NCBI GenBank assembly: GCA_030530785.1
Contig: JAUMUJ010000025.1
Span: 1-33,283 of the forward strand
DNA from: Moraxella sp.
GTDB lineage: Bacteria > Pseudomonadota > Gammaproteobacteria > Pseudomonadales > Moraxellaceae
Direction: 5' to 3'
DNA: 33,283 nt
The notes below the pieces were generated by a model. The model searched no databases, was not told the origin of the DNA, and worked only from the letters and a program-made list of their open reading frames with translations. Shown piece after piece: positions 4,989 to 28,983 of this stretch (position 1 is its first letter; each line of letters opens with the position of its first letter). The position numbers were made by a program, and so were the translations under genes.

Positions 4989-6458
4989 ATGACCCTTAAT
5001 ACCAAAACCAATCCAACCATTGTCGCCATCGCCAGTCCCATAGGGCAAGGCGGGGTGGGTGTGATTCGCCTATCAGGTCGCACCGCTTATGCCGTTGGTT
5101 GTGCCATCTCGGGCAAATCCACTCTTACGCCACGCCACGCCCATTTTGCCAAATTTAAGGACGCACAGGGGGCAGTCATTGACGAAGGGGTCATCATCTA
5201 CTTTAATACTCCCCATTCGTTCACAGGAGAAGACGTGGTGGAACTTCAAGGTCATGGCGGTATGGTGCTCCAAAACCTGCTCCTTGCTCGCTGTTTTGAG
5301 CTTGGGGCAAGACAAGCAGTTGCGGGCGAGTTTTCCTTGCGTGCCTTTGAAAATGATAAAATTGACCTGGTGCAAGCCGAAGCGATAGCGGACGCCATCT
5401 CTGCCACCAGTGTCGCTCAGGCAACGAGTGCCATTCGCTCACTATCGGGAGAATTTTCCAATAAAATCAATGAGTTATCTGAAAAAATTGCCAATATCCG
5501 CCTGTATGTGGAAGCAAGCATTGACTTTCCTGATGAAGACGATGTGGAATTTTTGTCAGACGGGGTGATTAAGTCTAAGATTGATGAGATTTTGGCTCAC
5601 ATTGATGACATTTTGGCGACCGCCAAGCAAGGTCAGCTCTTACGAGACGGGGTGCAGGTGGTATTGGCAGGTAAACCAAATGCGGGCAAATCCAGCCTGT
5701 TAAACCGCCTAGCGGGGGCGGAGCGTGCCATTGTTACTGACATTGCAGGGACAACACGAGACACGCTGTCTGAAACGCTGACTTTGGACGGCTTGACCGT
5801 GCATTTGACTGACACCGCAGGGCTTAGAGACACGTCTGATAAGGTGGAAAAAATCGGTATTGACCGTGCCAAATCAGCCGTTAAGCAAGCCGATATTTTG
5901 CTGTTTGTCTATGATGCCAGTAGTGAAAATAAGCCATTTGCCCTTGCCAAAGAACTGTTTGCTGATATCATTGATGAGATTGGTGTGGAGAATTTTGAGC
6001 GTAAACTTGTGATGGTTGCCAATAAAGCTGATTTATTGGGTGATGTTTCACGTGAAACAATGACTGATTTTAATAGTAATGATAACCATGATGGCGAAAA
6101 TGTTCCACATGAACCAAATCAAAATACTTCCAATGTTCCACGTGAAACAATCAGTCAAATACAAGTCTCCTGTACCACAGGATACGGGCTTGATGAATTG
6201 GTGCGTTTATTAAAAGATAAAGTGGGCTTTCACCCGCCAGAGAACAGCCTAATCGCTCGCACTCGCCACATTGATGCCCTAAAACGTGCCAAGTCGCACG
6301 CTATGGACGCACATACTCAGCTTATCGTCTATCAGGCAGGAGAGCTGGTGGCAGAGAGCCTACGACTGTCGCAGGTGGCATTGGGCGAGATTACGGGGCA
6401 GATGACGGCAGATGAGCTACTTGGGCGGATTTTTTCAAGTTTTTGTATCGGAAAATAG
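4989..6458 (+). CDS. mnmE: tRNA uridine-5-carboxymethylaminomethyl modification GTPase MnmE
   Basis: With MnmG, this GTPase makes the cmnm5 modification at wobble U34 of several tRNAs. The N-terminal tetrahydrofolate-binding domain starts TIVAIASPIGQGGVGVIRLSG. The P-loop is GKPNAGKSS near residue 228, the switch region carries IAGTTRDT, and DTAG follows. The G4 motif NKAD is near residue 345, and the C-terminus ends with the invariant CIGK that carries the catalytic Cys. ATG 4989 fits the family start; a TTG five codons upstream is possible. Oddly, the segment between G4 and the SCTTG G5-like motif is enlarged by an Asn-rich insert. It contains three parS-like DNA sites (6044, 6101, 6134), read as VSRET, VPHEP and VPRET. 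The nrdR ribosome site overlaps the stop. Confidence 0.97.
   Translation: MTLNTKTNPTIVAIASPIGQGGVGVIRLSGRTAYAVGCAISGKSTLTPRHAHFAKFKDAQGAVIDEGVIIYFNTPHSFTGEDVVELQGHGGMVLQNLLLARCFELGARQAVAGEFSLRAFENDKIDLVQAEAIADAISATSVAQATSAIRSLSGEFSNKINELSEKIANIRLYVEASIDFPDEDDVEFLSDGVIKSKIDEILAHIDDILATAKQGQLLRDGVQVVLAGKPNAGKSSLLNRLAGAERAIVTDIAGTTRDTLSETLTLDGLTVHLTDTAGLRDTSDKVEKIGIDRAKSAVKQADILLFVYDASSENKPFALAKELFADIIDEIGVENFERKLVMVANKADLLGDVSRETMTDFNSNDNHDGENVPHEPNQNTSNVPRETISQIQVSCTTGYGLDELVRLLKDKVGFHPPENSLIARTRHIDALKRAKSHAMDAHTQLIVYQAGELVAESLRLSQVALGEITGQMTADELLGRIFSSFCIGK
6044..6059. promoter_or_regulatory. parS-like site 1 (perfect palindrome, inside mnmE)
   Basis: The sequence TGTTTCACGTGAAACA is a perfect 16-bp palindrome and matches the conserved bacterial parS consensus bound by ParB. 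In the mnmE frame it reads V-S-R-E-T. Confidence 0.85.
6101..6116. promoter_or_regulatory. Degenerate parS-like site 2 (inside mnmE)
   Basis: TGTTCCACATGAACCA keeps the layout but has CACATG instead of the CACGTG core plus one arm change. Binding is doubtful. It encodes V-P-H-E-P in the same frame as its neighbours. Confidence 0.4.
6134..6149. promoter_or_regulatory. parS-like site 3 (inside mnmE)
   Basis: TGTTCCACGTGAAACA has an intact CACGTG core and one arm asymmetry. It is read as V-P-R-E-T in MnmE. Confidence 0.8.
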
Positions 6459-6467
6459 GAGAGCGAT

Positions 6468-6956
6468 GTGCATTGTCCGTTTTGTGGTGCAACTGACACC
6501 AAAGTGATTGACAGTCGTTTAGCTGCCGAAGGGTCGCAGGTTCGCCGTCGTCGCCAATGCACCGAGTGTGGCGAGCGTTTTACCACCTTTGAAGTGATGG
6601 AAGTGGTCATGCCTCGTATCATTAAAAGCAACGGTTTGCGTGAGCCTTATGATTATAACAAACTTCGCCGTTCTATGGCACTGCCCTTACAAAAACGCCC
6701 CGTGAGCATTGATGAGATTGATACAATCGTACACCGAATAGAACAACGCCTACGCCAAACAGGCGAACGTGAGGTATCAAGCAAGGTGCTTGGCGAGATT
6801 GTCATGGCGGAGTTAAAGGCGATTGATGATGTGGCGTATGTGCGTTTTGCCAGCGTGTATCGGGATTTTCAGGACATAGAAGCCTTTAAGGCTGAGCTTG
6901 AAGGTTTTGCCCCCAAAGTGTGCCACGACAATTTACAAGGACGAAATCATGACTGA
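6468..6956 (+). CDS. nrdR: Transcriptional repressor NrdR
   Basis: The 162-residue protein is a zinc-ribbon/ATP-cone repressor of ribonucleotide reductase genes, sensing ATP/dATP. The zinc ribbon uses CPFC (Cys3, Cys6) and CTEC (Cys31, Cys34), followed by GERFTTFE. The ATP-cone spans about residues 46-136 and begins with [21 protein letters not shown]. The start is GTG 6468: it gives the canonical MHCPFC N-terminus and has AGGAGAG at 6457-6463, overlapping the mnmE stop. The end overlaps ribD by 8 nt. The nrdR-ribD pairing is common in Proteobacteria and implies co-transcription. Confidence 0.97.
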
Positions 6957-8049
6957 TATTTTGTCTGATGACATCAAATCTTGCCCAACCGCCTTGCCCG
7001 ATGATGAAACATTCATGCTCATGGCATTGATTGAGGCCAAAAAAGGCGAGTTTACCACTCGTCCCAATCCTGCGGTGGGCTGTGTGATTGCTAAAAATGG
7101 CTTAATCATCGGTAAGGGCTTTCACCCCAAAGTAGGCTGTTCTCATGCCGAAGTATTTGCCTTAGATGATGTCAAAAATAACGGTCAAGACACACAGGGG
7201 GCAACCGCTTATGTAACGCTTGAACCGTGTGGTCATTTTGGACGTACACCCCCGTGTGCTAATGCTTTGATGGATGCAGGCATTAGCCGTGTGGTTATCG
7301 CCACGCTTGACCCTAACCCCAAAGTGGCGGGCAAAGGCGTGGCAATGCTTAAAGGTGCTGGCATTGATGTGGTGGTGGGCGTGTGCGAACACCAAGCCAA
7401 AGACCTAAACAAAGGGTTTTTAAAGGCGATGGCGACAGGTCTGCCATTTGTTCGCTTAAAAATGGGCATCAGTCTAGATGGTCGCATTGCCATGCAAAAT
7501 GGGCAGTCTAAGTGGATAACGGGCGAATTATCTCGCAGGGACGTGCAAAACTTGCGTGCCAAAAGCGGGGCGATTATCACAGGCTCTGGCACGATTTTAG
7601 CGGACAACCCCGCCCTAAACGTGCGATTGCCCGATATGGAGCTTGACAATGTCGGTACAACCGCCATACCCCAGCCTAAAATCGTGGTGGTGGACAGAAG
7701 TGGCAAGTTATCACTTGATGATGATTTTACGGCATTTAAAAACCCTGATACGCTAATTTGGCGAGATGATTTGTCTGCCCTGTTAAAAACGCTCGTGGCG
7801 GAGCATCAATGCCATGACGTGCTTGTGGAAGCAGGAGCAACGCTTGCCACTGGTTTTTTGAACCAAAATTTGGTGGATGAGCTGATTATTTATCAAGCTC
7901 CTTGCTTGCTTGGGGCGACTGCTCGTCCGATGTTTGGGGTGGACATTCAGCACTTGCAGGACAAACTTAATTTTGTGTTGGTGGACGTAGAAAGACTTGG
8001 TGATGATGTTAAGATGATTTTTCGCCCAAAAAACTTATCCACAGCTTGA
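6949..8049 (+). CDS. ribD: Bifunctional diaminohydroxyphosphoribosylaminopyrimidine deaminase / 5-amino-6-(5-phosphoribosylamino)uracil reductase
   Basis: The 366-residue enzyme catalyses two consecutive riboflavin pathway steps, deamination and then NADPH-dependent side-chain reduction. The N-terminal deaminase has the zinc site HAE (67-69) and [11 protein letters not shown] (Cys94, Cys103). The C-terminal reductase begins around [13 protein letters not shown] and includes [16 protein letters not shown] chose ATG 6949 because it sits 6 nt after an AAGG ribosome site and keeps the family length; longer in-frame extensions run into nrdR. A perfect DnaA box (8035-8043) is embedded in its last codons. 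It is followed by a 273-bp (or 285-bp) gap of DnaA and parS-like sites before riboflavin synthase. No FMN riboswitch is visible. Confidence 0.97.
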
Positions 8050-8084
8050 TTGCTTTTGTGTTTGAGCAAAATTTTATCACATAA

Positions 8085-8100
8085 TGTTCCACGTGAAACT
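8085..8100. promoter_or_regulatory. parS-like site 4 (ribD/ribC gap)
   Basis: TGTTCCACGTGAAACT has an intact CACGTG core with a terminal mismatch. It is intergenic and lies beside DnaA boxes. Confidence 0.75.
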
Positions 8101-8148
8101 GTGGAAAACTTTTAAAAGTATGTTAAATTGAGTTGTGGATAACTTAAT

Positions 8149-8164
8149 TGTTCCACATGAAACC
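8149..8164. promoter_or_regulatory. Degenerate parS-like site 5 (ribD/ribC gap)
   Basis: TGTTCCACATGAAACC has the CACATG core variant and a terminal mismatch. It begins 7 bp after a DnaA box. Confidence 0.4.
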
Positions 8165-8177
8165 CTTGATATGACTA

Positions 8178-8193
8178 TGTTTCACGTGAAACT
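8178..8193. promoter_or_regulatory. parS-like site 6 (ribD/ribC gap)
   Basis: TGTTTCACGTGAAACT matches the palindromic consensus except for the last base. Confidence 0.8.
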
Positions 8194-8334
8194 TATTTTT
8201 GGATAAAAGGTTTTGCATGAAACATATCGGGGCTGTGGATAAGTTGTGGTTTGAGTGGTTGGTTTGGGCTGTGTCTTTAAGTTATCCACAATTTATTGAT
8301 TGATGATTTTGCATGAATTAGAATGGGAAAGTTG

Positions 8335-8994
8335 ATGTTTACAGGTATCATAGAAACGACAGGCACACTGACCGCCATGACGCCCACAGGGGGCGATGTT
8401 CGGCTGACGATACACGCTCCCAAGATGGATTTTGGCGATGTCAAATTGGGGGATTCTATTGCATCTAATGGCATTTGTCTCACGGTGGTGGCGATTGATG
8501 GCGACAGTTATGCGGTTGATGTTTCACGTGAAACATTGTCCATTTCGGCATTGAATGCGTGGAAAGTGGGCGACACACTTAATCTAGAAAAGGCCATGCT
8601 CCCCACCACTCGCTTTGGTGGGCATATCGTGGCAGGTCATGTGGACGGTGTGGGCAAAATCGCCAAAATCGCCAAAGACGCCCGCTCGGTCTATATAGAA
8701 GTCGCCATACCGCCAGAGCTGATGAAATACACCGCTGACAAAGGCTCAATCACGGTGGACGGCATTAGTCTGACGACCAACCGCATAAAACCGTCCGATA
8801 ACATTGTTTGTCTCAACATCATTCCCCATACAGCGGAGATGACTAACATCGCCCGTCATTGGTCGGTGGGGCGAGCGGTCAATATTGAAGTGGATTTGGT
8901 GGCTCGCTATTTGGAAAGATTATTGTTGGGACAAAAAGACGCACCAAAAAATAATTTGACAATGGAGTTTTTGGCGGATAATGGCTTTGTATGA
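8335..8994 (+). CDS. ribC: Riboflavin synthase, alpha chain
   Basis: The 219-residue enzyme dismutates two 6,7-dimethyl-8-ribityllumazines to riboflavin. It has the two tandem lumazine-binding barrels: the first starts MFTGIIETTG and the second near GGHIVAGHVDGVGKI around residue 100. ATG 8335 gives the near-universal MFTGIIE start; an ATG four codons earlier is in frame. Codons 62-67 are a perfect parS-like palindrome (8520-8535), read V-S-R-E-T. Here that replaces a natural V-x-x-E-T-L segment of the family without an obvious insertion. The C-terminal tail is ordinary. The gene is also called ribE in some species. Confidence 0.97.
   Translation: MFTGIIETTGTLTAMTPTGGDVRLTIHAPKMDFGDVKLGDSIASNGICLTVVAIDGDSYAVDVSRETLSISALNAWKVGDTLNLEKAMLPTTRFGGHIVAGHVDGVGKIAKIAKDARSVYIEVAIPPELMKYTADKGSITVDGISLTTNRIKPSDNIVCLNIIPHTAEMTNIARHWSVGRAVNIEVDLVARYLERLLLGQKDAPKNNLTMEFLADNGFV
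8520..8535. promoter_or_regulatory. parS-like site 7 (perfect palindrome, inside riboflavin synthase gene)
   Basis: TGTTTCACGTGAAACA is identical to site 1 and a perfect palindrome. Confidence 0.85.
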
Positions 8995-9100
8995 TTAAAT
9001 GAGCGAAAAGTAGGTGCGTGCCACACGCCAAATAAACCAAAATGATTTTCAGTTATTTTTAAAATCATAGAAAATAAATAAACAAAGCGAATTGAGTGAA

Positions 9101-9118
9101 GTTAAATTGCAATTTAAC
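9101..9118. promoter_or_regulatory. Perfect 18-bp palindrome upstream of the methyltransferase gene
   Basis: GTTAAATTGCAATTTAAC is a perfect palindrome 34 bp before the next start codon. It could be an operator for an unknown dimeric regulator. It carries no T-tract, so it is not a typical terminator. Confidence 0.4.
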
Positions 9119-9152
9119 CACAACAATCTTGTTTAATTAAAAAGTAGTATTT

Positions 9153-9596
9153 ATGAAACTAAAAATTCCACCTGTGGTTGTTACGATGGTTTTTGCTCTT
9201 TTAATGTGGGCTGTTTCCAATATTGATTTAATGTTTGGTTTTAAGTCATTTTCGTTGGCTATTTTAAGTATTTTACTGGGGGTTTTGGTAATTATTTTAG
9301 GAGTGTTAGAATTTAAAAAAGCCAAAGTTACTCTCAATCCGCTAGACCCCGAGCAAAGCCAAAATATTGTTAGTGCAGGTATTTATCAATACACTAGAAA
9401 TCCAATGTATTTGGGGATGGCGTTAATATTGGTGGGCGTGGCTTTTTATTTTGGCGGTATTTTATTATGGTTTTTTGTGGGGGGATTTTTGATTTATATG
9501 ACTTATTTTCAAATCATGCCAGAAGAAGAGATTTTAACAAAAAATTTTGGTAAAACTTATTTGAATTATAAACAAAAAGTACGGCGTTGGATTTAA
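9153..9596 (+). CDS. Isoprenylcysteine carboxyl methyltransferase-like membrane protein
   Basis: The 147-residue integral membrane protein has about four hydrophobic segments. It carries the ICMT/PEMT-type signature: GIYQYTRNPMYLG near residue 77 and a Glu-rich MPEEEILTKNFGKTYLNYKQKV block near the C-terminus. Members methylate small or lipid-like substrates using SAM at the membrane; the bacterial substrate is usually unknown. The start follows a poor ribosome site, with an 18-bp perfect palindrome (9101-9118) in its leader. It stands alone between riboflavin synthase and fmt. The C-terminal RRWI is typical of the bacterial family. Confidence 0.85.
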   Translation: MKLKIPPVVVTMVFALLMWAVSNIDLMFGFKSFSLAILSILLGVLVIILGVLEFKKAKVTLNPLDPEQSQNIVSAGIYQYTRNPMYLGMALILVGVAFYFGGILLWFFVGGFLIYMTYFQIMPEEEILTKNFGKTYLNYKQKVRRWI

Positions 9597-9709
9597 TGAA
9601 TTTATTATCTGTAAAATGTGCTTTTTTTTAAAAAGTGGTGTACTACGCACTAATATCAATAAAATCATTTACATAAACCAACGCAGTAAAAAAAATATAA
9701 GGTAAAACA

Positions 9710-10690
9710 ATGACCAAAAAACTACGCCTAATCTTTGCAGGCACACCAGACTTTGCCAAAGTCGCCTTACAAGCCTTGATTGACCACCAAGGTGAGCTAA
9801 GTATTGACATCGTGGCGGTCTATACTCAGCCCGACCGCAAGGCAGGACGTGGACAAAAATTGACGGCAAGCCCTGTCAAAGAGCTTGCCCTTGCCCATCA
9901 TATCCCTGTGGAACAGCCGATAAGTTTTAGCTTAAAGAGTGAGAGCGGGCAGGTTTCACGTGAAACACTTGATAATTATCGCCCTGATGTGATGATTGTC
10001 TGTGCGTACGGTTTGATTTTACCGCTTGGCGTGCTAAATACCCCGACCTATGGTTGCCTAAACATTCACGGCTCACTACTCCCCCGTTGGCGTGGGGCAG
10101 CCCCCATTCATCGGGCGATTTTGGCGGGTGATGACGAGACGGGCATTACCATTATGCAAATGGCACAGGGTCTGGATACGGGTGATATGCTCTATAAAAT
10201 CGCCTGCCCAATCAATGACACCGACACCACACAAACCCTACACGATAAGTTAGCCGAGCTTGGCGGACAGGCGATGATAACAGTATTAAAAGACTTGGCG
10301 ATTTATCAAGCCAATGCCAAGCCTCAAGACGACAGTTTGGCAAATTATGCCGAAAAAATTACCAACAATGAAGGACAAATTGATTGGAATAATAATGCTT
10401 GGCAAATTAACCGCCAAATCCGTGCTTTAAATGCTTATGTCTTTTTAAATGGCGAACGCATTAAACTGTTAGAGTGTACACCCATAAAATCCGACCAAAC
10501 CACGACCGAGATGGCAGGTAAGGTTGTCAGTGTGGGGCGAAAGGCGATACTGGTGGCGTGCGGTGCTGATGAAAATGGCGACCAGCATTTAATTAACATT
10601 ACCAAAATGCAATGGGCAGGGGGTAAACCTTTGACCGCTGAACAAATTGCGGTGGGCGATAAATTAAAAGACGGACAGGTTTTTGACTAG
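9710..10690 (+). CDS. fmt: Methionyl-tRNA formyltransferase
   Basis: The 326-residue enzyme formylates Met-tRNAfMet using 10-formyltetrahydrofolate. The N-terminal catalytic domain shows LIFAGTPDFAKVAL and the active-site block NIHGSLLPRWRGAAPIHRAI, with catalytic Asn118 and His120. The second catalytic motif, QGLDTGDM, is near residue 155. The C-terminal domain binds tRNA. Length is normal. Residues 81-86 (QVSRET) are encoded by a parS-like palindrome at 9952-9967, in a linker where homologues vary. It is co-oriented with the small gene at 10694 and with rsmB (gaps of 2-3 nt), so fmt-rsmB forms an operon as in many Proteobacteria; no def gene lies adjacent. Confidence 0.97.
   Translation: MTKKLRLIFAGTPDFAKVALQALIDHQGELSIDIVAVYTQPDRKAGRGQKLTASPVKELALAHHIPVEQPISFSLKSESGQVSRETLDNYRPDVMIVCAYGLILPLGVLNTPTYGCLNIHGSLLPRWRGAAPIHRAILAGDDETGITIMQMAQGLDTGDMLYKIACPINDTDTTQTLHDKLAELGGQAMITVLKDLAIYQANAKPQDDSLANYAEKITNNEGQIDWNNNAWQINRQIRALNAYVFLNGERIKLLECTPIKSDQTTTEMAGKVVSVGRKAILVACGADENGDQHLINITKMQWAGGKPLTAEQIAVGDKLKDGQVFD
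9952..9967. promoter_or_regulatory. parS-like site 8 (inside fmt)
   Basis: GGTTTCACGTGAAACA differs from the perfect palindrome only at the first base. Confidence 0.78.
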
Positions 10691-10693
10691 GCA

Positions 10694-11041: not shown

Positions 11042-11043
11042 AA

Positions 11044-12369
11044 ATGATGAATAAAAATTTACCCGTCCGAGCCAATATTATTTTAACCCTTGAAAAAATC
11101 CATCAAGGGCAATCCTTATCATTACTGTTGGACGATTTATTAAACACCGTCAAAGATAACGAAAAAGGTTTTACCCACGAATTATTATTGGGCACGCTTC
11201 GCCACTGGTATGCCATCAGTCGCATTGGCGAGAGTTTAATAAAACAGCCCCCAACTGATATTAGCATTACTTGTGCGTTAAATATGGGCTTGTACGAGCT
11301 TTTATATATGAACACGCCCGATTATGCGATTATCAACGAAACATTAAATGCGGTAAAATCTTTAAATAAAAATTATGGCGTGGGACTGATTAACGCCATA
11401 TTGCGAAAAGTGGCAGATAAAAAAGAAAAATTCGCCAAAAAAACGCAAAAAAATCACAGCCTACCCAATTGGCTTGCCAAAGAATTAAAGCAAGATTGGG
11501 GCGAGCATTATGAAATGTTGGGGCAAAATTTGCGAAAGCCTGCTCCGATATTTTTGCGTGTCAATGGCAAATTTAGCACGTTGGATAATTACGCCAATTT
11601 GTTAAATTCTGCCAATATCGCTCATGAAATCCTACCGCTTGGCGTGGCACACGAGCGTGTGATTGGGCTGACCACATCGCAAAAGGTGCAGTCTTTACCA
11701 TATTTTCAAGACGGCTTTGTGAGTGTGCAAGACCGTCATGCTCAGCTTTGCGGATATATTTTAAAGGCGTTAAATCTGCCCAAAAACCTAAGACTGCTGG
11801 ACGCTTGCACCGCACCTGGGGGGAAACTTGCCCAACTGCTGGAACTGTCAAACGATGTGTTTCACGTGGAACACATCACGGCATTAGATAATGACGAAAA
11901 ACGCCTAAATCGTGTGTATGACAACCTATCAAGACTTCGCTTGTCAGACAAGGTGGACGTGATTTGTGCGGACGGCACGAGCTATCGTACGGACACGCCC
12001 TTTGATGTCATCGTGCTTGACGCACCGTGCAGTGCCACAGGGGTTATCAGGCGACACCCTGACATTGTTCTGCTTCGTACTGAGCAAGATGTCGCCCAAA
12101 CAGTCGCATTGCAGGCGGACATCTTGCAAAATCTGTGGCAAAATCTGGCGGTGGGCGGACATTTGTTGTACATTACCTGCTCACTGTTAAAGGCAGAAAA
12201 CGAACGCCAAATCGTGAATTTCCTTGCCAGTACGCCAAACGCCAAAACGGTGGATTTTGAATTGACCTTGCCTAATCACATCAAGCAAACGGTGGGTTAT
12301 CAGTGTTTGCCGTTAAATGATGATGATGGTGATGGGTTTTATTATGCTTTGCTACAAAAAGTGGATTAA
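11044..12369 (+). CDS. rsmB: 16S rRNA (cytosine-967-C5)-methyltransferase RsmB
   Basis: The 441-residue enzyme has an N-terminal NusB-like RNA-binding domain (about 1-140) and a C-terminal Rossmann methyltransferase. The SAM-binding loop is LLDACTAPGGK (about 251-261). Two catalytic cysteines appear in DAPCSATG (Cys329) and ITCSLL (Cys379), as expected for m5C RNA methyltransferases of the RsmB/NOP2 family. It methylates C967 of 16S rRNA. Residues about 272-276 (FHVEH) are encoded by a parS-like site at 11858-11873, between motif I and the next strand. That segment is slightly longer than in typical RsmB. It is last in the fmt operon. Confidence 0.97.
   Translation: MMNKNLPVRANIILTLEKIHQGQSLSLLLDDLLNTVKDNEKGFTHELLLGTLRHWYAISRIGESLIKQPPTDISITCALNMGLYELLYMNTPDYAIINETLNAVKSLNKNYGVGLINAILRKVADKKEKFAKKTQKNHSLPNWLAKELKQDWGEHYEMLGQNLRKPAPIFLRVNGKFSTLDNYANLLNSANIAHEILPLGVAHERVIGLTTSQKVQSLPYFQDGFVSVQDRHAQLCGYILKALNLPKNLRLLDACTAPGGKLAQLLELSNDVFHVEHITALDNDEKRLNRVYDNLSRLRLSDKVDVICADGTSYRTDTPFDVIVLDAPCSATGVIRRHPDIVLLRTEQDVAQTVALQADILQNLWQNLAVGGHLLYITCSLLKAENERQIVNFLASTPNAKTVDFELTLPNHIKQTVGYQCLPLNDDDGDGFYYALLQKVD
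11858..11873. promoter_or_regulatory. parS-like site 9 (inside rsmB)
   Basis: TGTTTCACGTGGAACA has the CACGTG core and one arm asymmetry. It is read in a different frame from the others, giving F-H-V-E. Confidence 0.78.
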
Positions 12370-12751: not shown

Positions 12752-12752
12752 C

Positions 12753-13157
12753 ATGAAAAATCAGTATGTTATAGATACACATATTTTTCTATGATTGGTT
12801 TTTAATCCTGATAAAATTACTGCTAAAATCAGACAATTATTGGAAGATAAAAACAATCAAGTTTTTATCTGCAATACCAGTTTTTGGGAAATTTCCATTA
12901 AGTACAATCTAGGCAAATTGGATTTAAATGGCGTATCGCACAAAGAATTGCCTAATATTGCGGTAAAAATGGGTATTGAAATTATACAAGTTAATTATGA
13001 TATTATGGCAAATTTTTATCAATTACCAAAAGTAGAAAAACACAAAGACCCATTTGATAGAATTATGATTTATTATTGTATTTATCATAAATTAACATTG
13101 GTTTCTATTGATGATAAATGCAATGAATATCAAAAGCTTGGTTTGAATTTAATATAA
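12753..13157 (+). pseudogene. PIN-domain (VapC-type) toxin, interrupted by an in-frame TGA
   Basis: ATG 12753 encodes MKNQYVIDTHIFL, then TGA at 12792-12794, then the same frame continues LVFNPDKITAKIRQLL to 13157. In PIN toxins the block D-T-H-x-F-L is followed by W, so TGA most likely replaces TGG (Trp). The nuclease acidic residues are otherwise present: Asp8 in DTH, Glu in SFWEISIKYNLGKLDL, and Asp in DPFDRIMIYYC. Full length would be 134 codons, normal for the family. VapC toxins cleave tRNA or rRNA. A start after the stop would lack Asp8 and should be dead. UGA read-through is an unlikely alternative. Confidence 0.85.
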
Positions 13158-14640: not shown

Positions 14641-14657
14641 TAATTTAAGAGTTTGTG

Positions 14658-16451
14658 ATGATTAAAAATGCCAGTCCCTATACCCTGACAGACATTCTTT
14701 CCAAAAAAGATAATGATGAATGTTTGTATGTTATTCCGCCCTATCAAAGAGCATATGCTTGGGGAAAGTCTGAATGGGAAGAGCTATTTAATGATTTGCT
14801 AATCAATGACAAAGGTTATTTTTTGGGTTCATTGATTTGTATCGGCAATCCAAATGAGTATAAAGTGATTGACGGGCAACAACGTTTAACGACGCTTAGT
14901 GTTTTATTACTCAGCGTTTATCAGCAAATTGAAAAGTTAAAAAAAGATTTTTCGGCTAACATGAGTGATGAAAATATGGCTGATTATTTGTGGTTAAAAA
15001 GAGCCATTATCACAAATCATGATTGTCGCTTGACGCTTTCTATTCAAAATGAAAATAAAGACGATTGACTTTATTTGGCAAAATTTACATTAGACAATAA
15101 AGCACAAATAGATAAACCTAGCAATTTCGGCAATCGCCGAATATCAAAGGCTTATGAATATTTTAATGTACTTATCAATAATCAAATTATAAAACTTGAT
15201 GATGAAAATTGCACCAAAGAAGCGAAAAAACAGACGTTTAGAGTGTTGTTTGAATTTTTGGAAAAAGTTAAATCAGCCATGCTGATTAGAATAGAAACTG
15301 ATAATGAGCAGTCTGCCTTTTTATTATTTGAAAGTTTAAATAATCGTGGTTTGCCATTATCTCCCATTGATTTGATTAAAAATAAAATCTTAGAGAAAAT
15401 GAATGGGGATATTGAAAAAAATAACGAAAATTGGCAAAAAATTTTGAAAAATATCGGCGAAAAAGCCAATTTGCAAGAGCGTTTTTTAAGGCATTTTTAT
15501 ATGACCTATGCCGATATTTTGCCCGAACCACCAAAAGACAAAGAGGGTAATCTGACCATACCAAAAGTAACCAAAAGCAATTTGATTGATTTTTATAACA
15601 AACAAATTGACAAAGATGTTCAATTTGTTTTTGATAATTTAATTAAAAAATCAGAAATTTATGGATTGCTTACCAACCCAAATCAAATCACTGATGACAC
15701 TAATGTCGCCAAAAAATATCAAGAAAAATTGATAAATCTGCATTATTTAGGCATCAGTCAGGCTTATATGTTATTAGCCTTTGTTTTTGAAAAGCATAAA
15801 GAGCAAGATTTTACCGATTTGTTGGAATTTTTGGAATTTTGGTTTATTTGTCGCCATGCCACAAATGAGCCACCCACCCACCAATTAGATAAGATTTTTG
15901 CCGAACTTACCCATACTCAAAAACAAGATTATGATTTTGAATTGATAAAATCTACACTGTTTGGATGCTTAGACAAAGACAGAATCAAAAAATCATTGAG
16001 TAATGCCGATATTTATGATTATCCTAATTTGGTTCGCAATATTTTAATCCGCTTAGAACAAAACTTGCGAAACAAACAGACAGCCGTAGACTTTTGGAAA
16101 AAAACAAATAAACAACCCGTGTGGACGATTGAGCATATCTATCCACAAAATCCGCATGATGAGAAAGATTGGGGAGATGATGAGCAAAATGCACGGTTAA
16201 AACAAAAATTACACAGTTTGGGTAATTTAACCCTGACTTGCTATAATGGCTCATATTCTAACAAAAAATATGCCGAAAAATGCCAAGTTACTGACGATGG
16301 TAAACCAGTTGGTTTGATAAATGGCGACATTAAAATCAATCAAACCTTGCCAACACCAAGCGATAATACAAATGATTGGACAGCCAAAGAAATTGATGAA
16401 AGAACAGAGTGGTTGATTGAGCAATTTCTTGATTTTTTCTATAAGAGCTGA
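14658..16451 (+). pseudogene. GmrSD-like DUF262/DUF1524 protein split by an in-frame TGA
   Basis: The first part (to 15068) has the DUF262 motifs PPYQRAYAWGKSEWEEL and IDGQQRLTTLSVLLLS, the nucleotide-handling part of GmrS-type proteins. A TGA at 15066-15068 follows, and the same frame then continues through LYLAKFTLDNKA to 16451. The second part ends with the DUF1524 HNH-type nuclease motifs WTIEHIYPQNP and LGNLTLTCYNGSYSNKKYAEK. Full length would be about 597 codons. GmrSD-type (type IV) systems cut modified phage DNA. Both halves are clean in one frame, so a single nonsense change is the simplest explanation. The second half could restart at TTG 15075, which would resemble separate S and D subunits. 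ATG 14658 follows AAGAG. Confidence 0.85.
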
Positions 16452-22821: not shown

Positions 22822-22833
22822 GCATTTTGTGGA

Positions 22834-22885: not shown

Positions 22886-22918
22886 CCTACGGCACGATTA
22901 GATAAAGGTGATTATTAA

Positions 22919-23191: not shown

Positions 23192-23297
23192 TAGTGCCAT
23201 AGGGTTCATGCCACACACCGCTCAAATACGTCCCATTCATTGCATTTTTCAAATAATCACGATAAAATAAAGAAAAACCCATGAAAAAGGAGCTGTC

Positions 23298-23871: not shown

Positions 23872-23874
23872 CCC

Positions 23875-24525: not shown

Positions 24526-24543
24526 TTTTGGGTTATTTTAATT

Positions 24544-24561
24544 TGTAAGCAAATGCTGACA
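24544..24561 (+). promoter_or_regulatory. GacA/UvrY-box-like upstream element of sRNA A
   Basis: TGTAAG-CAAATG-CTGACA matches the GacA-binding palindrome TGTAAG-N6-CTTACA with one mismatch. It begins 62 bp before the CATAAT -10 (24606-24611). Confidence 0.7.
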
Positions 24562-24605
24562 AAATTTTGCGATTTTGGCGTATTTTCTGATAAGCCAACT
24601 TTTGG

Positions 24606-24611
24606 CATAAT
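24606..24611 (+). promoter_or_regulatory. -10 element of sRNA A
   Basis: CATAAT lies in TTTTGGCATAATACAC, shared exactly with sRNA B. No good -35 is present, as expected of an activator-dependent promoter. Confidence 0.6.
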
Positions 24612-24617
24612 ACACAC

Positions 24618-24747
24618 ATCAGCAAGGAGATGGCAAACGGATAAGCCAACATGGACGAATGCTGATGTTATGGACAGACCTTAGGGATACATCGGAGCAA
24701 TACTCCTTATGCAATAAGACCACAGGCAACCGCTTGTGGTTTTGTTG
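24618..24747 (+). ncRNA. RsmY/RsmZ/CsrB-type small RNA candidate A
   Basis: About 130 nt lie between a predicted start near 24618 and a terminator. Six GGA motifs are present (AAGGAGAT, ACGGATAA, ATGGACGA, ATGGACAG, GGGATAC, TCGGAGCA). Several could lie in loops; CATCAGCA at the 5' end pairs with TGCTGATG to enclose three. Repeated loop GGA motifs are how RsmY/Z and CsrB/C RNAs sequester the translational regulator CsrA/RsmA. The terminator stem is ACCACAGGC/GCTTGTGGT plus a T-tail, ending next to the convergent thioesterase stop. The class is inferred from motif content, upstream palindrome and a paralogue (25295-25454). No protein is encoded. Confidence 0.75.
24719..24745 (+). terminator. 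Terminator of sRNA A
   Basis: ACCACAGGC pairs with GCTTGTGGT across an AACC loop (one G-T pair) and is followed by TTTTG. Confidence 0.75.
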
Positions 24748-24749
24748 TG

Positions 24750-25172
24750 TTAGGCGTGTGTTTTTATCACAAATACCCCCTTAAACTTTGCTACCACCGT
24801 CTCGCCGACGCTTAGGGTGCATTGGGTGTGAACAGAAGCCTTGCCAAAACGTGCCAACATCGTCTTGACCCGATGGGAGTCGTCTGTCAAGGTGGCGTGG
24901 ATAAGCACGTCCGATGTGGCGGGGGCAAGATAGCGGATTTCGCTGTGCTTGATGACGATGTCGCCACAGGCTTGGGGAAAATGCTCATGCACCACCGCCC
25001 AGCCTGCCAAAGTCGCCCCAAGCGACAGACTGCCCCCAAACACCGTGCCGTGATGGTTGGTGTTGCCGTTGTAGGGCAGTTGCAATGTTACGTCCTTGTC
25101 GGTGCTGATGATGGTTAAGTTTAACGCACCACTTGCGGGGATTTGCGCCAAAAAGTCGGATAAGGATTTCAT
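24750..25172 (-). CDS. YiiD C-terminal-type (hotdog) thioesterase
   Basis: The 140-residue protein has a hotdog fold pattern: FLAQIPASGALNLTI, NHHGTVFGGSLSLGATLAGW (the YiiD_C-type active-site helix) and IVIKHSEIRYLAPATSDVL. It probably hydrolyses acyl-CoA or acyl-ACP thioesters, substrate unknown. I chose ATG 25172 because MKSLSDFLAQIPASG matches family starts. Two upstream ATGs (25205, 25229) would extend the coding region towards the sRNA B control element. It lies on the opposite strand between the two Rsm-type small RNAs. Confidence 0.82.
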   Translation of the reverse strand: MKSLSDFLAQIPASGALNLTIISTDKDVTLQLPYNGNTNHHGTVFGGSLSLGATLAGWAVVHEHFPQACGDIVIKHSEIRYLAPATSDVLIHATLTDDSHRVKTMLARFGKASVHTQCTLSVGETVVAKFKGVFVIKTHA

Positions 25173-25220
25173 GGTATCATCGTGGTCAAAAGACCATTGT
25201 AGCATGATTGTAAAAATCTT

Positions 25221-25238
25221 TGTCAGCATTTACTTACA
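25221..25238 (+). promoter_or_regulatory. GacA/UvrY-box-like upstream element of sRNA B
   Basis: TGTCAG-CATTTA-CTTACA matches TGTAAG-N6-CTTACA with one mismatch. It is almost the exact reverse complement of the sRNA A element and also begins 62 bp before CATAAT (25283-25288). Confidence 0.7.
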
Positions 25239-25282
25239 AAACTTTGCGTTTTTGGCGTATTTTCTGATGGTCATTATTTTGG

Positions 25283-25288
25283 CATAAT
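25283..25288 (+). promoter_or_regulatory. -10 element of sRNA B
   Basis: CATAAT in TTTTGGCATAATACAC is identical to sRNA A. The DNA before it (TTTTTGGCGTATTTTCTGAT) is also shared. Confidence 0.6.
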
Positions 25289-25294
25289 ACACCC

Positions 25295-25454
25295 AACAGC
25301 ACAGGATAGGCAAAAAATCCTAAGCAGTTTTTAGGTGGGAATGCCACAAGGACGAACGCTGTTACTAAGGAATGATGGTATGGACATTGCAAGAAGCAAA
25401 AGCCTCCTACGATAGACCGCAAATCCCCCGTTTGTGGTCTTATCGTTTTTTTTG
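25295..25454 (+). ncRNA. RsmY/RsmZ/CsrB-type small RNA candidate B
   Basis: About 160 nt from a predicted start near 25295 to a strong terminator. Five GGA motifs appear (CAGGATAG, GGGAATG, AAGGACGA, AAGGAATG, ATGGACAT), and 5' AACAGC pairs with GCTGTT. It shares GGACGAANGCTG with sRNA A in the same relative position. The terminator is GACCGCAAA/TTTGTGGTC with T8. Body sequence is otherwise diverged, while the promoter and activator palindrome are near identical, as expected for paralogous Rsm RNAs that keep only motif spacing. Function as CsrA/RsmA antagonist is inference. Confidence 0.75.
25415..25453 (+). terminator. Terminator of sRNA B
   Basis: GACCGCAAA pairs with TTTGTGGTC across TCCCCCG, with GATA/TATC extending the stem, followed by a run of eight T. 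Confidence 0.85.
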
Positions 25455-25457
25455 GGC

Positions 25458-25485
25458 TTGACATATCTAAATTTATAGATATAAT
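25458..25485 (+). promoter_or_regulatory. Promoter of the ArsR-type gene with overlapping operator palindrome
   Basis: TTGACA (25458-25463) and TATAAT (25480-25485) are 16 bp apart, near-perfect sigma-70 hexamers. ATATCTA-N6-TAGATAT (25463-25482) fills the spacer and overlaps the -10, the expected place for repression by the ArsR-type product. A similar sequence, ACATATCTAAATTTTTAT, recurs at about 25894-25911, upstream of the LLM gene. Confidence 0.75.
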
Positions 25486-25515
25486 GATGTATTATTTGTA
25501 AGATTATCTACATTC

Positions 25516-25833
25516 ATGAAATCCACCGATATTTTTAAAGTGCTTGCCAACGATGTCCGCTACCAGATTTTGCTGTGGCTTAAAGACCCCGCCGTGCATT
25601 TTGGGGCAGACACTCTGCGTTGTGCTGAGACGGGCTTTGATGGTGGGATTTGTGTGGGTGTGATTACCGAAAAATCAGGGCTTGCTCAGTCGGTGATTTC
25701 CAGCTATCTGACCAGTTTACAACAAACGGGGCTGATAGAAAGTAAACGCATCGGCAAATGGACGTATTATCGTTATTGTCCGAGCGGGGTGGAGCATTTT
25801 ATCTGCCAAGTGCGTGATGAGATTGGCGATTAA
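25516..25833 (+). CDS. ArsR/SmtB-family winged-helix regulator
   Basis: The 105-residue protein starts DIFKVLANDVRYQILLWLK and has the recognition helix region SGLAQSVISSYLTSLQQTGLIESKRIGKWTYYRY, a typical ArsR-type winged helix. No canonical ELCVCDL metal box is present; Cys residues in LRCAETGFDGGICVG lie just before the DNA-binding helices and could sense metal or redox. It is followed by the LLM oxidoreductase gene, the acidic peptide and an Old Yellow Enzyme, which it may control, since a half-copy of its promoter palindrome recurs before the LLM gene. Autoregulation is inferred from the palindrome at 25463-25482. Confidence 0.85.
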   Translation: MKSTDIFKVLANDVRYQILLWLKDPAVHFGADTLRCAETGFDGGICVGVITEKSGLAQSVISSYLTSLQQTGLIESKRIGKWTYYRYCPSGVEHFICQVRDEIGD

Positions 25834-25893
25834 AACAAGGTAAATGACAATTTGCCCCACACAAGCACGCCAAATTAAAAAAATTTTGCCAAA

Positions 25894-25911
25894 ACATATC
25901 TAAATTTTTAT
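25894..25911 (+). promoter_or_regulatory. Partial copy of the ArsR-type operator before the LLM gene
   Basis: ACATATCTAAATTT is repeated from 25461-25474, but the second arm is degraded (TATAAAT instead of TAGATAT). It lies about 25 bp before the LLM start. Confidence 0.5.
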
Positions 25912-25933
25912 AAATGTAAAAGTGAGAACAATC

Positions 25934-26920
25934 ATGACCGATGTGTCCGTGTTAAACCTTGCCCCCTTGCGAGACGGTGAGACCTTTAATCAAGCGGTGG
26001 ATAATTTGGTGGAGCTTGCCCAGCTTGCCGAACGGCTTGGCTATGCTCGCTACTGGGTTGCCGAACATCACAATATGCCTTATCTGGCAAGCTCTGCCAC
26101 AAGTCTGCTTATCCAGCGGGTGCTTGATAAGACAAGCACAATCCGAGTCGGCTCAGGCGGTGTCATGCTCCCCAACCATTCGCCCTTTGTCGTTGCCGAG
26201 CAGTATGGTACGCTGGCAAGCCTATACCCTAAGCGTGTGGATTTGGGGCTTGGGCGAGCCCCTGGTACTGACCCTGCCACCGCCCGAGCCATTCGCCGTC
26301 ATCAGGACGATTTTGCGACAAGTTTTCCAAGTGATATCAAAGAGTTGCAGTTTTATTTTGGTAATGACAACAGTGATAAAGTGCGAGCCTATCCTGCCAA
26401 AGGACTAAGCGTGCCACTTTATGTCTTGGGTTCTAGCACCGAGAGTGCTTATTTGGCGGGAGAGCTGGGTCTGCCTTATGCCTTTGCGTCTCATTTTGCC
26501 CCACGTTTTTTGACACAGGCGGTGGAGATTTATCGCCGAGAGTTTAGACCGTCTGATGTGCTTGACAAGCCCAAGGTCATCGTTGGGCTAAATGCCATTG
26601 TCGCTGACACTGACAGTGAAGCCCAGCTACTTGCCACCACCAGTTTGCAGTTTTTTTTAAATGTGGTAACGGGCGAGTCGTCAGGCATGAAACCCCCTGT
26701 GGCAGACATTGAAAGCCGTATCCCGCCACATATTCTGTCTATGGCAAAGAGCATGACGGCGTGTAGCGTGATTGGTTCGCCAAAGACGGTTAAGTTTCAG
26801 TTGGAGCAATTGCAACACCAAGTGAGTGCCGATGAGCTGATGGCGGTCAGCTATATTTATGACAAAGACAAACAGGCTCGCTCATATGAACTACTTGCCG
26901 ATATTGTCAAAACTTTATGA
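25934..26920 (+). CDS. LLM-class (bacterial luciferase-like) flavin-dependent oxidoreductase
   Basis: The 328-residue protein fits the MsnO8/YhbW-type luciferase-like family, FMN/F420-type TIM barrels. LGYARYWVAEHHNMPYLASSATSLL and TSTIRVGSGGVMLPNHSPFVVAEQYGTLASLYP are the characteristic blocks. RVDLGLGRAPGTDPATARAIRR is also typical. The substrate is unknown. I chose ATG 25934; a GTG at 25922 is in frame. It lies between the ArsR-type regulator and a 50-residue acidic peptide gene 16 nt downstream, so the two are probably one transcript. Confidence 0.9.
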   Translation: MTDVSVLNLAPLRDGETFNQAVDNLVELAQLAERLGYARYWVAEHHNMPYLASSATSLLIQRVLDKTSTIRVGSGGVMLPNHSPFVVAEQYGTLASLYPKRVDLGLGRAPGTDPATARAIRRHQDDFATSFPSDIKELQFYFGNDNSDKVRAYPAKGLSVPLYVLGSSTESAYLAGELGLPYAFASHFAPRFLTQAVEIYRREFRPSDVLDKPKVIVGLNAIVADTDSEAQLLATTSLQFFLNVVTGESSGMKPPVADIESRIPPHILSMAKSMTACSVIGSPKTVKFQLEQLQHQVSADELMAVSYIYDKDKQARSYELLADIVKTL

Positions 26921-26936
26921 TTGATAAGGAGTAAAC

Positions 26937-27089
26937 ATGACCATCCAACCCACCCCAACCCTTGATGATTTAAATCTTGATGAGCTGGATTTTGATGCCA
27001 TGCTTGGCGACTTGGCGGACGTGAGTGTGTCTGGCGGATTTGACGGTGAAAACGATGATGGCTGTGAAGGAGGTGCGTGTAAGATTTGA
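26937..27089 (+). CDS. Small acidic peptide with C-terminal Cys-x-Gly-Gly-x-Cys motif
   Basis: ATG 26937 follows an ideal AAGGAG (26926-26931) and encodes 50 residues, starting MTIQPTPTLDDLNLDELDFD and ending DGCEGGACKI. It is strongly acidic, has a Gly-Gly (VSGG) before the last quarter, and only two Cys, both at the C-terminus. It starts 16 nt after the LLM gene, so it is co-expressed. The layout (acidic leader, Gly-Gly, short Cys-containing tail, next to a redox enzyme) resembles a RiPP precursor. Equally it could be a small metal- or flavoenzyme-associated protein. I do not recognise a family. Confidence 0.6.
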   Translation: MTIQPTPTLDDLNLDELDFDAMLGDLADVSVSGGFDGENDDGCEGGACKI

Positions 27090-27222
27090 TTGATGATGAT
27101 TGTAATGGACTTATGGGGTGCATCGCTCTCTTTATGACAAATTTTTTGGGCAACTGATTTGCCTCCATATGTCCAATTTTAAAAACATCTTAATTTAACA
27201 TTTAATTTTAAAGAGAAAACCC

Positions 27223-28356
27223 ATGACAAATACCACCCCACTTTTTACCCCTTTTACCCTAAATAATGGCGTAGAGATTAAAAACCGTCTTGTCGTTGCT
27301 CCGATGACCCACTATGCGTCCAACCCTGACGGCACATTGTCTGACGAAGAGCGGGCGTTTTTGACGGGGCGGGCAGATGATTTTGGCTTATTTATCACGG
27401 CGGCGACTTTGGTGCACCCAAGCGGTAAAGCCTTTGTCGGGCAACCGTCTGCCTATGATGAAAGCCATTTGGTCAGCCTGACCGAAACCGCCAACATCAT
27501 CAAACAAGGCGGTGCAAAGGCAATTTTGCAAATCCATCACGGCGGTTATCAGTCGCTTGCTGAGTTTGGCGAGGTCATCGCCCCATCTGACATAGACAAC
27601 GGTCAGCACAAAGCTCGTGCCATGAGCGTGGACGAGATACAGGCGGTCATCACAGGCTTTGGTGTGGCGACCGATTTGGCGATACGAGCAGGGTTTGATG
27701 GTGTGGAGATTCATGGGGCGAATAATTATCTCATTCAGCAGTTTTTCTCGCCCCAAGCCAACAAACGAGACGATGAGTGGGGTGGAAGTTTACAAAATCG
27801 TTTGCGTTTTGTCAGAGCAGTCATCAAGACGGTCAATGACATCAAAATTAAACACAATAAAGCGGATTTTATCGTTGGGTATCGTTTTTCGCCAGAAGAA
27901 GCGGGCGATGATGGCTTGACAATGGCAGATGCGTTTGATTTGATTGATGCTTTGGTTGATGAGTCGTTGCAATATTTGCACGTTTCGTTGTGGGATTTTT
28001 ATAAAAAAGCAAGACGTGGGGCAGATACCAATTTAACCCGCATAGAACAGCTCCATACCCGCATTGGTGGAAAGTTGCCACTTATTGGTGTGGGTTGTCT
28101 GCTCTCTGCTGATGACGTGGTGCGTGCGTATGGTACAGGCTGGGCGGAGTTTGTCGCTGTGGGCAAGGCGGTGCTGACCAATCCTAATTTTGCCACGCTC
28201 CTAAAAACAGGCGACACCGACAAAATCGCCACGCACATAGACCCAAGTCTTGGTAACATCTATCGCCTATCATCTGCCCTATGGCAACAACAACTCATGG
28301 GACTGCCTTATTTGCCACCCTTAAAAGACAAATCATGGCAACCGCTAGACATTTAA
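27223..28356 (+). CDS. NADH:flavin oxidoreductase (Old Yellow Enzyme-like)
   Basis: The 377-residue FMN-binding TIM barrel starts PLFTPFTLNNGVEIKNRLVVAPMTHYASNPDGTLS, the OYE opening with the flavin-contacting APMT. ILQIHHGGYQ is the His-rich region, and GFDGVEIHGANNYLIQQFFSPQANKRDDEWGGSLQNRLRF is the signature block with active-site residues. OYEs reduce activated C=C bonds with NAD(P)H. It follows the ArsR-type/LLM/peptide group after 133 bp and may have its own promoter. A terminator (28362-28392) follows. Confidence 0.92.
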   Translation: MTNTTPLFTPFTLNNGVEIKNRLVVAPMTHYASNPDGTLSDEERAFLTGRADDFGLFITAATLVHPSGKAFVGQPSAYDESHLVSLTETANIIKQGGAKAILQIHHGGYQSLAEFGEVIAPSDIDNGQHKARAMSVDEIQAVITGFGVATDLAIRAGFDGVEIHGANNYLIQQFFSPQANKRDDEWGGSLQNRLRFVRAVIKTVNDIKIKHNKADFIVGYRFSPEEAGDDGLTMADAFDLIDALVDESLQYLHVSLWDFYKKARRGADTNLTRIEQLHTRIGGKLPLIGVGCLLSADDVVRAYGTGWAEFVAVGKAVLTNPNFATLLKTGDTDKIATHIDPSLGNIYRLSSALWQQQLMGLPYLPPLKDKSWQPLDI

Positions 28357-28361
28357 TCCAT

Positions 28362-28392
28362 AAAATCCGTGTAGTGCTTACATGGATTTTTT
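28362..28392. terminator. Convergent terminator between the OYE gene and yigZ
   Basis: AAAATCC-G-TGTA pairs with TACA-T-GGATTTT around a 5-nt loop, with T-runs on the + side. It overlaps the 3' end of yigZ on the minus strand. Confidence 0.75.
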
Positions 28393-28983
28393 GTCGTCCA
28401 AAAGCTTGCCGAATACCCCCAAATTACCCCCAAATTCGTCCACTTTTTCGCTGTCTAGTTGTACGCTGATGATGACATTATGGGCATAGTCTGTCTCCAA
28501 AATTTCGCCCCCAATTTGCCCGACCAAATAGCGGATTTGGGCTTCGTGGGCGAAGGTGGTTATGACCTTAATCAGTGATTTTGGCACAAATGGCACAAGG
28601 GTCATCTCGTCCACCACCATCTGTGTGGCGGTGGCGTAGGCTCGTGTCAGCCCGCCTGCTCCCAGTTTGATACCGCCAAAATATCGCACCACCACCACCA
28701 GCACGTTGCCGATGGTTTTATGTTGTAAGACATTTAAAATCGGTCTGCCTGCCGTGCCGTTGGGTTCGCCGTCATCATCAAAACCTGCGTGCGTGGTGTT
28801 GTGTGGGTCGCCTAAGATATAGGCAATACAATGATGGCGAGCGTCAGGGTATCTCTCACGCAACTGTTCCACGTGAAACATCACTTCGTCTTTTTGGCTG
28901 ATGGGATAGGCAAAGGTGAGAAACTGGCTTTTTTTAATCTCATAAACCGCTTGGCAGGGGACGGATAAGGTATGGTAGGTCAT
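28378..28983 (-). CDS. yigZ: IMPACT-family protein YigZ
   Basis: The 201-residue protein belongs to UPF0029/IMPACT. HHCIAYILGDPHNTTHAGFDDDGEPNGTAGRPIL and VVVVRYFGGIKLGAGGLTRAYATA are the family signatures. The C-terminal domain resembles elongation factor G domain IV. Role: translation-associated, in detail unknown. Residues about 34-39 (MFHVEQ) come from a parS-like palindrome at 28865-28880, read on the minus strand. It is convergent with the OYE gene and shares the strand of the next secreted protein gene, with a 23-nt gap. Confidence 0.93.
   Translation of the reverse strand: MTYHTLSVPCQAVYEIKKSQFLTFAYPISQKDEVMFHVEQLRERYPDARHHCIAYILGDPHNTTHAGFDDDGEPNGTAGRPILNVLQHKTIGNVLVVVVRYFGGIKLGAGGLTRAYATATQMVVDEMTLVPFVPKSLIKVITTFAHEAQIRYLVGQIGGEILETDYAHNVIISVQLDSEKVDEFGGNLGVFGKLLDDKKSM
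28865..28880. promoter_or_regulatory. parS-like site 10 (inside yigZ)
   Basis: TGTTCCACGTGAAACA has an intact CACGTG core. It is the most distant site, about 17 kb from the nearest other one. Confidence 0.75.

Follow-up and report, generated by a model that had tools for sequence, protein, structure and literature searches.

The window analyzed here, 33,283 nucleotides of DNA from a Moraxella sp., is the entire contig C28 of a draft genome of 1,910,556 bases (57 contigs, 86.9% complete). At its start lie rpmH, an AT-rich tract, and two exact DnaA boxes (TTATCCACA). Both boxes stand beside rpmH, one at 50..58 on the plus strand, on the oriC side, and one at 123..131 on the minus strand. Farther along follow mnmE, ribD, ribE, fmt, rsmB, and a YigZ/IMPACT-like gene (28378-28983, minus strand); mnmE, ribE, fmt, rsmB, and YigZ/IMPACT-like are the names we presume from the translations. 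The closest named matches of MnmE are those of Moraxella lacunata and M. caprae (90% and 89% identical, respectively, over the best segment). The subject of this study is a set of ten 16-bp parS-like palindromes, which an earlier note on this DNA had read as an origin-proximal centromere of the ParABS type, and the form that these sites take in related genomes.

Origin-limited palindromes and the ParABS genes

Scanning both strands of the window for the 16-mer with up to three mismatches recovered all ten positions given in the earlier note exactly. By chance, 0.29 matches (standard deviation, 0.52) were expected, as judged from 100 shuffles, none of which reached ten. The sites lie mostly inside genes, as had been claimed: seven fall in reading frames (three in mnmE and one each in ribE, fmt, rsmB, and the YigZ/IMPACT-like gene), and the remaining three are found in the gap between ribD and ribE. 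Two are perfect palindromes and eight keep the CACGTG core, again in agreement with the earlier description, and the other two, at 6101 and 8149, have a CACATG core and three mismatches each. No strand is assigned to any of the ten. The first mnmE site (6044..6059), identified by the 16-mer scan and by its orthologs, is perfect and is read as VSRET. It is followed by the degenerate site at 6101..6116 and by a site at 6134..6149 that is read as VPRET. All three belong to the loop between the G4 (NKAD) and G5 motifs of MnmE, residues 356 to 390, the codons of which span 6039..6143 on the plus strand. The gap between ribD and ribE holds sites at 8085..8100, 8149..8164 (the CACATG form, altered in one arm), and 8178..8193. 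The second perfect palindrome, at 8520..8535 in ribE, is read as VSRET within DVSRETL. The sites in fmt (9952..9967), rsmB (11858..11873), and the YigZ/IMPACT-like gene (28865..28880) are read as VSRET, FHVEH, and FHVEQ, respectively. Regular helical spacing of the clustered sites was considered and rejected, as spacings below 150 bases range from 15 to 93 and share no common period.

An even spread of the 16-mer around the genome could be ruled out. With up to two mismatches, ten sites were found in the whole genome. The window has eight of them and contig C54 the remaining pair, so that all fall on two contigs that together account for 46,427 of the 1,910,556 bases. The reversed pattern, used as a control, gave 2 matches. 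When three mismatches were allowed, 18 matches were obtained versus 17 for the control; of the eight extra matches, two are the sites at 6101 and 8149 and six are scattered. Contig C54 has a DnaA box at its first base, followed by dnaA, dnaN, recF, and gyrB. Its two sites lie inside recF, are read as VFHVEH and MFHVKQ, and are additional to the ten in the window. In 10 of 14 Moraxella and Psychrobacter loci (L009 to L022), recF, dnaA, rpmH, and mnmE occur in this order on one contig, with about 6 to 7 kb between recF and mnmE; the remaining four loci contain an incomplete set of these genes. Because relatives share this gene order, C54 and C28 most likely flank oriC. The location of the presumed origin given in the earlier note was right: besides the rpmH gene and DnaA boxes at the start of the window, rpmH adjoins dnaA across contig ends in three relatives (G005, G007, and G013), and GC skew switches sign there.

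The genes for the segregation proteins lie outside the window, as had been noted, and both are present in the genome. Open parA and parB frames stand side by side on contig C5, after rsmG; for ParA and RsmG, we again rely on names presumed from the translations. The ParB protein (P0001) scores 169 bits against TIGR00180 (cut-off, 58) and matches solved Spo0J/ParB chains with E values down to 2e-42. It carries AGERRWRA and GKARTTVSNLLRLN, corresponding to a nucleotide-binding motif and a helix-turn-helix, where we take GERR..R to be the nucleotide-binding motif of ParB. Another ParB-like sequence in genome G000 (C4:53998-54309) matched less well and did not reach the family cut-off; it lies about 1.3 kb from a match to a C5-methylase (C4:55561-56979) and perhaps belongs to a mobile element.

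Elsewhere in the window, two adjacent frames at 14655-16451 resemble a DUF262/GmrSD-like protein that is apparently split, and a short frame at 12795-13157 resembles a PIN-domain (VapC-like) protein, both being assignments that we presume from their translations. The window gave no hits in a tRNA scan or in an Rfam scan at the gathering threshold.

Core types across the genus

Exact 14-mer cores, GTTYCACGTGRAAC versus GTTYCATGTGRAAC, were counted on either strand in 22 congeneric genomes. G019 was excluded, leaving 21, since it contained 0 parS sites of either type, one CACGTG, one control word, and no ParB candidate, and its sequence is seemingly unreadable. In the 21 readable genomes, the parS core is either of the CACGTG type (canonical) or of the CATGTG/CACATG type (one-armed). 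Nine genomes are mainly canonical, with canonical/one-armed counts such as 10/1 in G000 and 15/1 in G002. Three are mixed (G015, 4/3; G003, 2/2; and G014, 6/6) and were counted with the canonical group in later comparisons. The nine mainly one-armed genomes are G004 (M. cuniculi; 1/12), G006 (1/15), G007 (1/10), G008 (3/13), G009 (2/8), G010 (1/4), G012 (2/9), G013 (2/10), and G020 (M. oculi; 0/8). The symmetric core with both arms changed, CATATG, was found as exact GTTYCATATGRAAC in 4 of the 22 genomes, one copy in each. In a sample of 299 genomes from the phylum, for which the one-armed core alone was counted, each of the 298 genomes other than the window's own had 0 to 3 one-armed sites.

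The altered sites differ from the canonical core in a narrow way. The sampled origin DNA of the nine one-armed genomes contained 9 exact and 52 single-mismatch sites, and all 52 mismatches fall within the central ACGT (47 C7-to-T and 5 A6-to-C changes). None was seen elsewhere in the core, where ten positions remain and the pattern is free at two of them; the count covers sites with no more than one mismatch. With both arms pooled, a single change can break ACGT in six ways, and these genomes show only two of them. The other twelve genomes contained 78 exact and 28 single-mismatch sites, the latter likewise all central (27 at C7 and one A6-to-T). In 794 kb of DNA away from the origin loci, used as a distal control, 0 exact and 5 single-mismatch cores were found.

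Individual sites were followed from species to species, and orthologs occur in recF, mnmE, ribE, fmt, and rsmB of related species. In canonical species, those in recF, in rsmB, and at the first position in mnmE are mostly CACGTG; one-armed species mostly have CATGTG or CACATG there, and some sites have been lost in both groups. The first mnmE site is present with no more than one core mismatch in 19 of the 21 genomes, the window's included; the exceptions are G013, where it has two mismatches, and G003, where there is none. At this site, C or H replaces the canonical R in all nine one-armed genomes, despite the availability of synonymous escapes, and likewise in the mixed genomes G014 and G015. 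The ribE site keeps its arginine in 17 of 19 genomes, and R is replaced by C in G010. The change in ribE is synonymous in the other eight one-armed genomes, of which five retain the site in the A6-to-C form and three have lost it. An intact CACGTG persists at the fmt site in seven of nine one-armed genomes; perhaps a single intact site is required.

The sampled origin DNA of the genus contained 167 sites with at most one core mismatch, and for 128 of these the surrounding open frame is 180 codons or longer. Among the 128, 76 are read as VSRET-like and 52 as FHVK/E-like peptides, and none is in the phase that creates TGA. The in-gene sites, placed in conserved housekeeping genes, are thus limited to the two stop-free phases of the three. 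The three-site loop of mnmE is longest in G000, G001, G002 (M. lacunata), and G018 (M. caprae) according to the alignment, and in M. lacunata (L010, 11104) an exact 14-base core stands midway in the same loop. In an AlphaFold2 model of MnmE, residues 356 to 390 have a pLDDT of less than 50 (whole-model mean, 77.9); therefore, the protein seems to tolerate the DNA insert with its three sites. In a codon test on the canonical and mixed genomes, parS codons were identical in 6 of 12 cases, versus 130 of 636 for other codons (P = 0.023).

Conserved peptides such as DVSxETL in RibE, FH in RecF, and VSCETG in MnmE might happen to spell a parS-like word, and some sites do fall on protein motifs, notably the second mnmE site of most relatives, which coincides with the G5 motif VSCET. 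As an account of the whole array, such a coding coincidence is extremely improbable, given the excess over the chance level, the restriction to the origin, and the three sites that lie outside genes. Moreover, the change at the first mnmE site in the one-armed genomes is not a synonymous one.

ACGT avoidance and the core sequence

One-armed genomes are depleted in the central word of the palindrome throughout their DNA. The whole-genome ratio of CACGTG to the reversed control GTGCAC was 0.02 to 0.37 in eight one-armed genomes, 0.43 in G010, and 0.81 to 2.61 in the other twelve. Tetramers were counted in samples of 57 to 60 kb for most genomes, 80 kb for G016 (M. bovoculi), 126 kb for G000, and 4.7 to 39 kb for G003, G011, G014, and G017. 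On both strands, 0 ACGT were observed against 292 expected in G007, 4 against 225 in G004, 4 against 233 in G020, and 8 against 250 in G009. Depletion was weaker in G006 (42 against 192), G008 (56 against 268), and G012 (78 against 228). The fmt parS site retains ACGT even where the rest of the genome is nearly devoid of it, and in G004, one of the two ACGT in the sampled DNA falls in a parS-like site. Of all 256 tetramers, ACGT alone strongly separated the eight avoiders from twelve other genomes, with geometric means of observed over expected of 0.05 and 0.64, respectively; the next-best tetramer gave 0.84 versus 0.99. For this comparison, G010 was reassigned from the one-armed genomes to the others once its ACGT count had been obtained, and G011 (4.7 kb) was omitted. 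G010 was kept among the one-armed genomes for mismatch counts and contrasts and is not in the avoider list of the distal test, which was run without G011.

The share of one-armed sites correlated with CACGTG depletion (Spearman coefficient, -0.79; 21 genomes). The relationship held in phylogenetic contrasts (r = -0.74; P = 0.0001; sign-flip P = 0.002), when parS itself was subtracted (r = -0.72), when ACGT per kb was used (r = -0.68; P = 0.0007), and when ACGT was taken from distal DNA only (r = -0.59; P = 0.006). On the tree, three changes of core type are needed. The avoiding clades have supports of 100/100 and 94/96, and the second of them is sister to the canonical M. bovoculi group.

A C-to-T change at the center of parS could arise through deamination of methylated cytosine in CpG, without any selection, and the predominance of C7-to-T (47 of 52 single changes in one-armed genomes) is what such a process would leave behind. 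We consider this explanation unlikely. The products ATGT and ACAT show no clear excess in the avoiders (0.89 versus 0.86), total CpG observed over expected overlaps between the groups, and ACGT is the one tetramer that strongly separates them. Furthermore, matches to C5-methylases were found in 11 of 22 genomes only, with none in the avoiders G004, G007, G008, and G012, so that no C5-methylase common to the ACGT avoiders was found.

Instead of pressure on ACGT, the one-armed cores might reflect a lineage-specific change in what ParB recognizes. Genomes of the same core type group together on the tree, and ParB and Noc are reported to switch specificity through few residues (PMC7383237). Such a change is quite unlikely here. 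An alignment of 19 ParB sequences (12 from canonical or mixed genomes and 7 from one-armed genomes) had no column that separates the core types; G008, G009, and G019 had no ParB match at an E value of 1e-30 and are not part of it. A new specificity would favor the symmetric CATATG core, which is as rare as described above, and it would not clear ACGT from the rest of the genome.

Instead, ACGT avoidance seems to have reshaped the centromere. Most sites stay in place across the genus, and the central ACGT is kept or broken largely according to the tolerance of the genome for this word. A surviving broken site alters one arm only, sparing one GTTYCAC arm for a ParB that carries no type-specific change. 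With one arm changed, a recognized arm is thus retained and the ACGT that spans the dyad is lost; one-armed sites are presumed to be functional. The pattern resembles bacterial restriction-site avoidance, in that GGCC, GATC, GCGC, and CCGG are strongly depleted in most of the sampled genomes and ACGT in eight. In the same samples, depletion of GGCC and CCGG was very strong in nearly all genomes, CGCG was depleted along with GATC and GCGC in most, and TCGA in some. By analogy with palindrome avoidance in bacteria at large, the avoidance of ACGT is probably driven by restriction.

The ribD-ribE region and the biology of the array

The gap between ribD and ribE combines parS-like sites with DnaA boxes. 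Four exact DnaA boxes lie in or adjoining this gap (window positions 8035 to 8290), 8 kb from oriC, and are interleaved with the three parS sites: one at the end of ribD (8035..8043, plus strand), two within the gap (8134..8142 and 8234..8242, both on the minus strand), and one upstream of ribE (8282..8290, plus strand). In 21 genomes (19 of the genus and two Psychrobacter loci, L021 and L022), 68 exact DnaA boxes occur in 7,871 bases of ribD-ribE DNA, compared with 35 in 794,129 distal bases, and 19 of the 21 have at least two. Apart from the start of ribE, the boxes are the best-conserved part of an alignment of 12 ribD-ribE regions. One to four parS-like sites are present in the gap in all 10 canonical or mixed genomes sampled there. 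In contrast, seven of nine one-armed genomes have no parS-like site in the gap, while eight of the nine retain at least one DnaA box. Across all sites, 4 of 61 are intergenic in one-armed genomes versus 35 of 106 in the others, largely because the sites in the ribD-ribE gap are gone. The same combination of DnaA boxes and parS was found in G110, from a sister genus, and likewise at locus L244. For a further genus (g193), the DNA flanking mnmE was inspected in two genomes, and neither ribD nor ribE was detected there.

The enrichment of DnaA boxes would also be in keeping with a second replication origin at ribD-ribE, to which the sites there would belong instead of to a centromere. This is very unlikely, as GC skew switches sign at dnaA/rpmH (G005, G007, and G013) and does not do so at ribD-ribE, and the highest AT content over 40 bases in the window is 0.80 at ribD-ribE versus 0.93 at oriC. 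As to the role of the combined region, it is our guess that it titrates DnaA or couples DnaA to ParB.

With the sites confined to the origin and parB present in the genome, the ParABS reading of the earlier note is supported, with ParB binding itself predicted from sequence. Very probably, the sites are the parS centromere of the Moraxella chromosome, including the one-arm change that is linked to ACGT across the genus. ParB, encoded by an operon elsewhere in the genome, would recognize each 16-bp palindrome via its two GTTYCAC arms and, after loading as a CTP-gated clamp, would spread, and ParA would subsequently separate the origin regions; loading, spreading, and separation are modeled on what has been shown in other bacteria. 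The palindromes are thus most likely the handles by which Moraxella pulls its copied chromosomes apart. As such, the Moraxella ParABS centromere is of an ordinary, common kind. At least one exact core occurs in 113 of 119 Moraxellaceae genomes, many of which have 4 to 15, and genomes of the sister genus g18 have 4 to 14 each.

The array is like the chromosomal ParABS systems of Pseudomonas aeruginosa, Bacillus subtilis, and Caulobacter crescentus in its 16-bp palindrome, its origin-proximal and mostly intragenic sites, and its ParA and ParB. In many bacteria, parB lies beside oriC. Unlike in those three systems, the shorter route from the origin sites to parB measures about 0.7 to 0.9 Mb in five Moraxella genomes (single-contig genomes G001, G006, G007, and G013; also G005), the array is partly interleaved with DnaA boxes, and the core varies with ACGT avoidance. 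In P. aeruginosa, 9 of 10 parS sites are most likely in coding sequence (PMC4368675), and its ParB binds the half-sites GTTCCAC and GTTTCAC (PMC10419367). The GTTYCAC arm is the recognized unit in the half-parS sites, and the one-armed Moraxella sites keep one such arm. However, the P. aeruginosa half-sites are hundreds of scattered single arms, whereas those of Moraxella are full-length sites in fixed places with one arm altered. Five altered Moraxella sites with A6-to-C in one arm have, at that position, the base of the Noc-binding site NBS (TATTTCCCGGGAAATA), but position 1 stays G and the other arm is of the parS type. NBS itself was not found among the window sites; their cores read CACGTG or CACATG, and the 14-mer begins with G.

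Several observations weigh against a coupling of the centromere to ACGT avoidance or against parts of the overall interpretation. The avoiding clades number only two, and the sign-flip test on ACGT per kb gave P = 0.065. Although 4 of 5 sites in G010 are one-armed, this genome does not avoid ACGT, and neither do G014, G015, and G003, whose cores are mixed. Both types carry CATGTG at the second mnmE site, since MnmE's own G5 motif lies there, and this site inflates the one-armed counts of both. No enzyme that explains the avoidance was found in a search that covered the C5-methylase class. Codon-level support for a constraint on the DNA is modest, the synonymous-site test being weak. The link between C28 and C54 over oriC is drawn from the gene order of relatives, and with the draft at its present completeness and number of contigs, further sites could be missing. 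Finally, binding of ParB to the sites is a prediction from their sequence.

Taking these points together with the evidence, we think it fairly probable that ACGT avoidance, probably due to present or past restriction, rewrote most centromere sites in at least two lineages while ParB was unchanged where it matters, with escape through one arm by way of a base that ParB accepts, and that DnaA boxes and parS form a conserved composite at ribD-ribE where the initiator and the segregation loader could meet outside oriC. On this interpretation, centromere evolution would therefore be driven by genome defense rather than by ParB. What goes beyond known ParABS biology is the link between ACGT avoidance and the sequence of the centromere; we know of no report of restriction-site avoidance rewriting a chromosome's own centromere. 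Judged by title, the literature covered held no work on parS in Moraxella or on restriction avoidance of parS, with the Livny 2007 survey of parS lying outside this coverage. Works that mention parS sites, Moraxella, and ParB together concern polyvalent phage proteins and Psychrobacter plasmids.

These findings bear on what ParB requires of its sites. Few DNA words are as conserved in bacteria as parS; therefore, a genus that shifts most of its sites together while ParB shows no corresponding change offers a natural experiment on the needs of this protein. The prediction is that one intact GTTYCAC arm, together with an arm carrying C7-to-T, suffices for ParB loading. Restriction avoidance would thereby be tied to chromosome segregation. 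In addition, the composite of DnaA boxes and parS at ribD-ribE provides a definite location for studying whether initiation and segregation communicate away from oriC.

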